A DNA stretch of 44,097 nt from Candidatus Aenigmarchaeota archaeon LH_S7. GTDB lineage: Archaea; Aenigmatarchaeota; Aenigmatarchaeia; QMZS01. The notes under the pieces were generated by a model that searched no databases, had not been told where the DNA came from, and saw only the letters and a list, made by a program, of their open reading frames with translations. This document shows positions 1-29,219 of this stretch, piece after piece (position 1 is the first letter of the stretch; every line of letters begins with the position of its first letter). A program made the position numbers and the translations under genes. The stretch spans positions 1 through 44,097 of the forward strand of contig JAGXOL010000006.1 of assembly GCA_023659895.1 (NCBI GenBank), written 5' to 3'.

Positions 1-3000
1 GATACTAACCTGGATACCCTAACCCTCTCCCTCTACAACTCAACAGGTCTATACCAGGAAAACCAAACCTCAGACAATATCTACATTAACTACACAGATT
101 TACCAGATGACACCTATTACCTAAACGCAACAGCAAATGACACAGCAGGAAATGAAAACCAAACCAAAACAAGAGATATAACAATAGACACAACAAACCC
201 AGAAATCCAATTTGTAACCCCAACAACAGAAGAAGGAAATTATTCTCAAGACTGGATTTATGTTAATGTTAGTGTTGCAGAAACTAATTTTAAGAATATA
301 ACTTTTTATTTGTATAATTTAACAGAGTTAGTTAATGAAACTGCATATTTAACAGAAACCTACAATATCAACTTTACCTCTTTGCCTGACATTAATTATT
401 CGATAAATACTACTATTTGTGATATAGCTGGGAATTGCAATTCTACTGACACAAGAAGCAATATTACTTTGGATACAACTTATCCCTCTTTTTCAAGCTA
501 TTCAAGAAATCCAAACCCTCCAAATGAAGACCAGGATATCCAGGTAAAGGTTACTATAACTGAAACTAATTTAGACACAGTAATTTTAGAGTGGGGTGGA
601 GCAACAAATTATACTGTAACAAGACATGTAGGAAATGAATATTATTATACAATTGACAAAGCAAAATATACTGCCCATGATGAGATAACTTATTATTGGT
701 ATGCTGAAGATTCTGCTGGTAATTTAAATCAATCTGCACAACAATCTTTTACTGTAGCAAGTCAACTACCTCCTGTATCAGCACCTGGGGGAGGAATAAG
801 TTATAAATGCACTAATGATTCAAACTGCAAAACAAACCAATACTGCTATGAGCATAAATGCTATGATTATGAATGCACTAATGATTCAAACTGCAAAACA
901 AACCAATATTGCTATGAGCATAAATGCTATGATTATGAATGCTATTCAGATGCTGACTGCAATATTAAAGATGACGAAGTATGCTTAAATCATAAATGTG
1001 TAAAATTATTTGATGTTAAAATAATAAGAGCAGATTCTCCAATAGAGCCAGAACAGTTATTTGATTTCACTTATTTAATAAAAGGAAGGGCTGATATTAA
1101 AGGAGATGTTATAGTAAAATTCTGGCTGGAAAAAGACGGCAAAACAGCAACATCAGGCTCGGACACAATTTATTTAGGTTCTTTTGAAGAAAAAACAGAA
1201 ACAACAAGCATATTCCTGCCAACTGACACTCCAACAGGGAATTATGACTTTTATGTGCAGGTAGATTTTGAAGGACATAAAATAAAAGCTCACAGAGTTA
1301 TTCAGGTTGGTCATAGTGTTCCCTTGATTTTGGATATGGAACTAGAAAAACTGCCGCAGGTGATATCCCAGGATGAGTTTGAATTTTCAACTGTTTTATC
1401 ATTTAATAAAGACTTGCCAGCTGTCTTGCATTTAGAAGAAAAAATATACAAAGGAAGAAATGTTATATGGCACAAAGAAAAAGATTTGGAAATTACAAAA
1501 ACAGCAACAATAACTGAAAATGCTGGAAAATTAAAGCCAGGAAACTACAAGATTGAGTTAATAGGTAATTATGGAGAAAATAAAACATTAAGATTAAGCA
1601 AGAGCTTTAGTATCGAGGCAACTGCAAAAGACTTTGAATTATATGCTATTACTGCTTTAATTGGGTTTGCTATTTTCATACTCTGTTTTATATTCTGGTG
1701 GGAAAGGAAAAAGATAAAAGCAGGAATTATCAAAGAAGAGAAATGGTTTAAAAGGCATAAAGTCACAATTAGTATAGCTGGATTATTCGTTGTTCTCGGA
1801 ATTTTAGCTTATTATTTAAACAGCATAGGAATTATCTCACTGCCCGTTAAACAATTTTTTGTTAATATTTTTTCATGGCTCAAAAATAATATTGGGCCTT
1901 ATTTTTCACCGTCTAATCCTTTGTTTTATTATGTTGTTGGTTCAATTGTTCTGATAATTGTAATTATTTTGTGCAGAAAAAAACATTTTACTAGAAATTG
2001 GCAAAAAAAGAAAAAAGAAGGAATTGATTTTGCTGTAAAAAAGATAAAAGCTCAGAAACATGAAATTAAGGTAAGAAGGACAAAGCAAATTGCTAAGAAG
2101 TTTAAGAGCTTTAAAAAGATTGTAGATAAGCACAAAACTCTATTTATTATTTTAGAAATTTTGATTGCTTGCTGTGTTGCTATTGGTGTTTTGTTTTATC
2201 TTAACATTGTCTCATTGCCAGAACTAACCTCCATAATGCAAAATATTAGTAATTCTATTGCAGAATTTGGGAGAAATGCAGGAAGTTCAATTGCATCAAG
2301 TTGGAACTCAGTTGTTGATTCTGCAACTAATTTAGGAAAATCTGTTGCAGGTTTTGTCGCTGATTATTTATGGCAGATTACTGCAGGTTTTATCGGAATA
2401 ATTAGTTTATTAATTGGTTATTACAACAGAACAAAATTAGGGGTATTATTTGGAAAAATAAAAAAACAAGCTCAGAAACATGAAATTAAGGTAAGAAGGA
2501 CAAAGCAAATTGCTAAGAAGTTTAAGAGCTTTAAAAAGATTGTAGATAAGCACAAAACTCTATTTATTATTTTAGAAATTTTGATTGCTTGCTGTGTTGC
2601 TATTGGTGTTTTGTTTTATCTTAACATTGTCTCATTGCCAGAACTAACCTCCATAATGCAAAATATTAGTAATTCTATTGCAGAATTTGGGAGAAATGCA
2701 GGAAGTTCAATTGCATCAAGTTGGAACTCAGTTGTTGATTCTGCAACTAATTTAGGAAAATCTGTTGCAGGTTTTGTCACTGATTATTTATGGCAGATTA
2801 CTGCAGGTTTTATCGGGATAATTGCGGCTGCAACCATAACTTACATAATAAGATGGTACAGAAAGAGAATGCTGGAGAGATTAAGATATTTAACACCTGT
2901 GGATTATGGGAGCTTGCCTAAGGAGGGTGTTGAACTTGGGAAAATCGCTGAAAGTCAAAGGAAAGTTTACCTTAATAAGAATGAGTTAATGACTCATGTG

Positions 3001-28673: not shown

Positions 28674-29018
28674 CGCCCTGGCCGGGATTCTCTTTTTGCT
28701 CAAGCCTTTTTTAAAAGCTTGTTTTGCTGGAACTTCCTCTAAAAGTCCCACTGGAACTTTTTCTAAAAGTTCCCTTCTTTTTTTGCTGGAACTTTTTCTA
28801 AAAGTTCCCTTTGAACCCGGGTCTCCGGCTTGACAGGCCGGTATCCATAACCCTGGAACCTTTTCAAAACCTCGAAAAACTTTGTTTTTCGGGATCCATA
28901 AACCTTTGGTTTATGAGGAAGGTTCCATCCAAAATAGGAGTTTAGCTTTCCTTTCTTCCTATCAAAAATTCCTTTCTTTTCTAAAGAAAGAAGGATTTGG
29001 CCACTAGACTACCAGGGC
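28674..29018 (-). tRNA. tRNA-Asp(GTC) with two introns (approximately 28847-28997 in the D arm and 28688-28809 in the T loop)
   Basis: Exons 29018-28998, 28846-28810 and 28687-28674 join to GCCCTGGTAGTCTAGTGGCCA/GGATACCGGCCTGTCAAGCCGGAGACCCGGGTTCAAA/TCCCGGCCAGGGCG: full cloverleaf, 72 nt, anticodon GTC. Exact junctions ambiguous by 1-3 nt. Confidence 0.88.
28688..28809 (-). repeat. Tandem stem-loop repeats inside the tRNA-Asp T-loop intron
   Basis: Perfect 9-bp/3-nt-loop hairpins GGAACTTTTTCTAAAAGTTCC at 28753-28773 and 28788-28808, a variant at 28729-28749, a fourth CAAGCC...GCTTG at 28701-28721; short TTTTGCT spacers recur. Confidence 0.9.
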
Positions 29019-29076: not shown

Positions 29077-29219
29077 GGGCCCGTAGCTCAGTCTGGTTAG
29101 AGCGTCTGGCTCTTATAACCTTTTTAGAAAGGGATTTTATCCAAAAAAGAAAGCTTCCAAATAAAATCTGGTTAAAAGGAGCAACCAGAAGGTCGGGGGT
29201 TCGAATCCCCTCGGGCTCA
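29077..29219 (+). tRNA. tRNA-Lys(CTT) with canonical 37/38 intron (about 29116-29182)
   Basis: GGGCCCGTAGCTCAGTCTGGTTAGAGCGTCTGGCTCTTA ... ACCAGAAGGTCGGGGGTTCGAATCCCCTCGGGCTCA; acceptor, D, anticodon and T stems pair; anticodon CTT. Confidence 0.9.

Follow-up and report, generated by a model that had tools for sequence, protein, structure and literature searches.

In the genome of Candidatus Aenigmarchaeota archaeon LH_S7 we find a tRNA-Asp(GTC) gene whose three exons, on the minus strand at 29018-28674 of contig JAGXOL010000006.1, join to a full cloverleaf around two inserts, one in the D loop and one in the T loop (positions 1 to 44,097 of the contig are the window, the whole stretch of DNA analysed). 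The locus is very probably a working gene whose precursor would lose both inserts as introns of the bulge-helix-bulge (BHB) type, the T-loop insert belonging to a family that, judging from sequence comparison, appears to have been copied between tRNA genes. An earlier reading of this DNA by a model (the original prediction) had described the two inserts and overlooked the main point, which is that they belong to families common to most tRNA genes here.

Structure of the tRNA-Asp gene

The anticodon loop of the gene, CTGTCAA, is uninterrupted, and its parts are as follows (slashes mark junctions):

28999..29018, minus strand: exon 1, GCCCTGGTAGTCTAGTGG(CC); acceptor 5' strand, D stem 5' strand and start of the D loop (end 29001 if the junction is GTGG/TTAT)
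28852..28998, minus strand: D-loop intron, ~147-150 nt, boundaries +/-3 nt
28810..28851, minus strand: exon 2, (G)TTATGGATACCGGCCTGTCAAGCCGGAGACCCGGGTTCAAA; remaining D arm, anticodon arm CCGGC CTGTCAA GCCGG, variable loop, T stem 5' strand and TTCAAA
28688..28809, minus strand: T-loop intron, 122 nt at 59/60; 3' end AGAGAA/U
28674..28687, minus strand: exon 3, TCCCGGCCAGGGC plus G73; T60, T stem 3' strand CCCGG, acceptor CCAGGGC and G73

Spliced in silico, the locus is called tRNA-Asp(gtc) by ARAGORN with any of the D-loop junctions GTGG/TTAT, GTGGCC/GTTAT or GTGGCC/TTAT, in agreement with the cloverleaf and with the earlier proposal of a tRNA-Asp(GTC) bearing inserts in the D arm and T loop and none in the anticodon loop. 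The T-loop boundary of that proposal, TTCAAA/.../TCCC around 122 nt, is likewise supported; its D-loop junction, GTGGCCA/GGGTTAT, is probably 1-3 nt off, because ARAGORN mis-frames the tRNA spliced there. On the unspliced locus ARAGORN reports 0 tRNAs, and an Rfam scan missed the gene, its sole match being the neighbouring tRNA at 29077-29219. In the unspliced RNA, the acceptor, anticodon and T stems form around the inserts in the predicted fold (minimum free energy -123.2 kcal/mol; z = -6.5 against shuffled sequences).

An intron family at position 59/60

Using a purpose-written tRNA finder, which applies acceptor and T-stem pairing criteria and ignores intron sequence, we found 32 tRNA genes in the genome, 24 of them with an intron at 59/60 (36-215 nt), two with an intron at 54/55 and six with no T-arm intron. 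Removal of the T introns in silico raises the ARAGORN detections from 5/32 to 26/32. Nineteen of the 24 T introns fall into one sequence-similarity cluster (118 similar pairs), and similar introns therefore reside in different tRNA genes, the pattern from which intron transposition is recognized in Thermoproteales. The T intron of tRNA-Glu encloses a decayed 3' tRNA exon (CTCCGCACCCCCGCA) and then hairpins, matching the 3' end and trailer of other tRNA loci, as expected of recombination between tRNA loci.

The 3' end of the 59/60 intron pairs with U54-U55-C56 in all 24 cases; all four pairs, including R57, are present in 16, and three of four in the other eight, giving a mean of 3.67 of 4 pairs with U54U55C56R57 compared with 1.64 in slid controls. 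The partner of R57 tracks its identity (G faces C in four of five introns, A faces T in 12 of 19), and the 3' bulge is AAT (AAU in RNA) in 22 of 24. The T-loop junctions of tRNA-Asp and of all 24 T introns have the form of a BHB or relaxed BHB, and the intron at C16:5294-5464 has an apparently complete one, read from the sequence as UUCA-AAU-GGAACC...GGUUC-UGAA-AAU.

The genome also holds the enzymes that such introns would need. Looking for the class of the splicing endonuclease, a check that the original prediction had suggested, we found one EndA gene encoding 223 aa with a lysine-rich N-terminal extension, whose best matches, archaeal tRNA endonucleases, include the one-gene type 1a79; a relative likewise shows one EndA only. 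An RtcB ligase gene is present as well, and together with the BHB-like junctions these genes bear out the assignment of the inserts to the non-canonical archaeal tRNA introns. By sequence the EndA is alpha-type and differs from the (alpha-beta)2 endonuclease of Thermoproteales, although the missing part of the genome may hold a second subunit. Reviews describe relaxed motifs as being cut by (alpha-beta)2 and epsilon2 enzymes (PMC4033280). The further claim that splicing would need an endonuclease of relaxed specificity may or may not hold: a central helix is present at all T introns, yet the inner helix is mostly non-contiguous, and the sole EndA found is of the one-gene alpha type.

The D-loop intron of tRNA-Asp is shared as well. 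Over 153 nt it is 86% identical to the intron in the D loop of tRNA-Gln(TTG) (C11:40045-40195), and a tRNA-Gln(CTG) fragment at C18:1-150, the start of that contig, contains the 3' part again; it thus occurs in three tRNAs, tRNA-Asp and two tRNA-Gln genes. As a candidate for the inserts, a group I intron was rejected, since they have no Rfam match.

Hairpin modules in introns and trailers

Much of the insert sequence consists of short hairpin modules. The T-loop intron of tRNA-Asp contains two A hairpins, one degenerate A hairpin and one B hairpin (CAAGCTTTTAAAAAAGGCTTG); the module sequences are GGAACTTTTAGAAAAAGTTCC for A and CAAGCTTTTAAAAAAGCTTG for B, and A(G/T)CAAAA usually follows each of them. 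The D-loop intron contains hairpins C (CATAAACCAAAGGTTTATG) and D (CGAAAAACAAAGTTTTTCG) in reverse orientation within an outer GGAACCTT/AAGGTTCC stem, the corresponding modules C CATAAACCnnnGGTTTATG and D CGAAAAACnnnGTTTTTCG being enclosed by a GGAAC..GTTCC stem.

A 71-nt probe matches 35 places in the genome. A genome-wide count with two substitutions permitted gives 88 modules. Of these, 48 belong to T-loop introns and nine to tRNA introns at other positions, and 19 follow a tRNA at a distance of less than 400 nt, which makes 76 associated with tRNA genes in one of these ways; none was found upstream of a tRNA. The other 12 have different locations, some of them at contig ends within further tRNA fragments. 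Among A and B modules with a tail, 37 are in sense orientation relative to the tRNA strand and two in antisense; the number and order of modules vary freely among tRNAs.

Some hairpin trailers stand directly behind the discriminator base, as at C8:5165, C33:43845 and C54:27714, where the tRNAs end in CCCCCGCA. The repeats seem to break the assembly, because three contigs (C12:1, C17:1 and C18:1) end within intron or trailer repeats. A region comprising a tRNA-Lys fragment, the start of its T intron and a hairpin trailer is duplicated at C22:52800-53140 and C52:5640-6140; the former copy is without the 5' half, and a 3' exon was not seen.

Distribution among relatives and other phyla

The intron site is shared across the archaeal family to a degree that the modules are not. 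In one relative (G004), whose stretches we read through, 29 of 30 candidate tRNAs are credible and one is an evident false positive; of the 29, 21 have 59/60 filled and seven have 54/55 filled, and most of its 59/60 introns have a common 5' half, GCAACCCTTTTC..GAAAAAGGTCTGCACCCCAAAA, forming a family more uniform than in the window's genome, where the GGTCT..CACCCCAAA core is kept in several introns. With a covariance model of the G004-type core, multiple copies are found in 10 of the family's 11 genomes; other families of the class yield a few, many of which lie in tRNA T loops. The hairpin modules, by contrast, are absent from the ten other genomes of the family, except for one weak 30-nt match in G006.

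The tRNA-Asp gene itself has changed recently. In most relatives a short intron interrupts it at 54/55 and its D loop is intact; both introns described here thus look lineage-specific; the exceptions are a short 59/60 intron in G009 and a short, unrelated D-loop intron in G003.

The T-intron core also exists outside tRNAs, because its reverse complement closely precedes pairs of small genes with the appearance of toxin-antitoxin operons (C22:1133-1182, 1812-1861 and 2716-2763, minus strand, and C25:1218-1267, plus strand, in the window's genome, G000) and, in relatives, other genes (L220; L224).

When one genome per species was searched for exact matches, module A appeared in 11 records, one of them a Micrarchaeota genome, which by a phylum search lies outside the phylum of the window's genome; there, module A and an ATCAAAA linker form the 37/38 (anticodon) intron of tRNA-Ala(TGC). 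Of the ten bacterial matches, the one read (L102) is a terminator hairpin. The CTTTTAGAAA(A/G)AG core and ATCAAAA tail also occur with different matched arms in class relatives, in tRNA introns of G011 and G019 and behind protein genes in G097. Some of these cross-genome matches may be of independent origin, because the core is short and A/T-rich. In G097 (L140, L143) the hairpins are in tandem, CAAACTTTTAGAAAAAGTTTG-ATCAAAA or GAAACTTTTAGAAAAAGTTTC-ATCAAA, directly behind protein genes.

No core modules were found in the viral contigs of IMG/VR, for which reason a viral origin was rejected; a looser pattern gave three matches there: two are intergenic and consist of a short variant hairpin with its tail, and the third apparently falls within a reading frame. 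In two viral contigs (L151, L153) the short hairpin is AAACTTTTAGAAAAAGTTT with a ATCAAAAA tail, in intergenic sequence.

Discussion

The T-loop introns and their hairpins look like a spreading intron family, and we propose the following history. The tRNA-Asp precursor would lose its two BHB-type introns through cutting by EndA and joining by RtcB. The T-loop family would have come to occupy 59/60 in most tRNA genes of the archaeal family by being copied from tRNA to tRNA, and in the window's lineage its members would later have been enlarged by hairpin modules A-D, which would also have piled up directly behind tRNA genes; the D-loop intron would likewise have come to be shared among tRNA-Asp and two tRNA-Gln genes. 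Spread could have proceeded at the DNA level, one tRNA locus recombining with another or converting it, possibly via RNA copies, with the universal T-loop sequence TTCRAAT supplying both homology and a ready BHB half-site.

Several points weigh against this account. Splicing is a prediction from the gene sequences, and the proposed spread of introns from one tRNA locus to another, by recombination or gene conversion, is read from its apparent products. The position of the D-loop junction is uncertain within 3 nt, and its central helix, drawn by eye, has 3 bp (UGG:CCA) with bulges CCA and GGG. The T intron of tRNA-Asp has three of four pairs in its UUCA:AGAG central helix, with a 3' bulge AAU and little inner helix, and the EndA looks to be of the one-gene alpha type, a class reported to favour canonical BHB motifs.

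In bacteria, short palindromes in combinatorial arrays are known as repetitive extragenic palindromes (REP) and bacterial interspersed mosaic elements (BIME) and as miniature inverted-repeat transposable elements (MITE); they are mainly intergenic and tied to a transposase. The modules resemble these in being short palindromes combined freely, raising the question of whether they are a MITE- or REP-like mobile DNA element that inserts at tRNA loci, the introns being landing sites where it is tolerated because it lies inside or behind a spliced, trimmed RNA. Such an element might explain why module A and its linker serve as the 37/38 intron of a Micrarchaeota tRNA-Ala(TGC), why variants with core and tail recur in three class relatives, within tRNA introns of two and after protein genes in the other, and why trailers start right after base 73 in C8, C33 and at C54:27491. 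We nevertheless consider it rather unlikely: the modules here lie in tRNA introns and trailers, with almost no copies outside tRNA units and none upstream; viral contigs lack the core modules, save two short variant hairpins; no target-site duplication was recognised, though no systematic test was made; and palindromes moved by a Y1 transposase were rejected because the Y1/REP transposase gene (PF01797, the one transposase family searched) is absent from the genome. A broader form of the idea, which we entertain tentatively as a possibility, would make the hairpin module and its A(T/G)CAAAA tail a mobile RNA or DNA element, one for which tRNA introns and tRNA 3' ends serve as safe harbours, and which multiplies in them as modular arrays and moves between archaeal phyla.

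The arrays could instead be functional parts of the introns, stabilising them or giving rise to circular or small RNAs, and be kept by selection; the 37:2 sense bias and the variation of the arms in matched pairs across genomes speak for this, but module number and order differ freely between tRNAs and relatives fill 59/60 with introns lacking these modules, which makes it improbable. Arrival of the T-loop introns on site-specific integrative elements that use tRNA 3' halves as attachment sites, an intron-bearing attP replacing attB, is a published model for Caldiarchaeum (PMC3293823), where a mobile element is held to account for intron gain in tRNA-Thr. The stretch from the T loop to the 3' end is a common attachment core, and the relic 3' exon in the tRNA-Glu intron would suit such a model; recombination-linked gain at tRNA genes is common to both cases. 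Yet Caldiarchaeum presents one locus and our genome most of its tRNA genes, so that in each genome more than 20 tRNA genes would each need an independent integration, the trailers are filled by hairpins and not by element remnants, and no integrase was seen (neither integrases nor their remnants were sought systematically); we regard this explanation as quite unlikely. That the tRNA-Asp locus is a dying pseudogene filled with repeats is scarcely credible: its two inserts do exceed the tRNA in length and its D-loop junction is imperfect, but all stems are intact, and most tRNA genes, both here and in a relative, share the architecture. The original prediction had named an intact tRNA-Asp(GTC) elsewhere, together with the lack of a spliced product, as the mark of a pseudogene, and this reading was rejected because no other tRNA-Asp was found, a search for a second anticodon arm of tRNA-Asp type giving none in the 740 kb assembly (85% complete; the missing part could hold one).

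The spreading intron family that we favour has partial counterparts. As far as the accounts of a 2010 study cited in PMC4090602 and PMC4033280 extend, Thermoproteales show intron transposition and several introns per tRNA; the latter is the likeness to our genome, which belongs to a different lineage and differs in that 59/60 dominates most tRNAs, that hairpin modules enlarge the introns and trail the tRNA genes, and that one module is common across phyla. In Asgard Atabeyarchaeia and Freyarchaeia, 92-95% of tRNA genes have introns, often non-canonical and multiple (PMC11291895); these genomes are alike in being intron-rich with non-canonical, multiple introns, whereas the passages of that report consulted here mention neither shared hairpin modules nor T-loop dominance. 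For T-loop introns in DPANN archaea, the open-access literature searched offered no precedent.

The mechanism by which archaeal tRNA introns spread is unknown (PMC4090602). Here the gain is recent, massive, aimed at one site and marked by modules, so that donor and acceptor genes, empty sites and hybrids such as tRNA-Glu can be compared directly. Standard finders recover few of the genes (six by ARAGORN with introns allowed and eight by the Rfam model, of at least 32), so figures for the tRNA content and completeness of such genomes may mislead.

The divergent neighbour of tRNA-Asp is itself an intron-bearing tRNA gene, mis-framed by ARAGORN as Ala and assigned here from its anticodon, read by eye:

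29077..29219, plus strand: tRNA-Lys(CTT), Rfam tRNA 56.6 bits; ~70 nt intron at 37/38, T loop without intron
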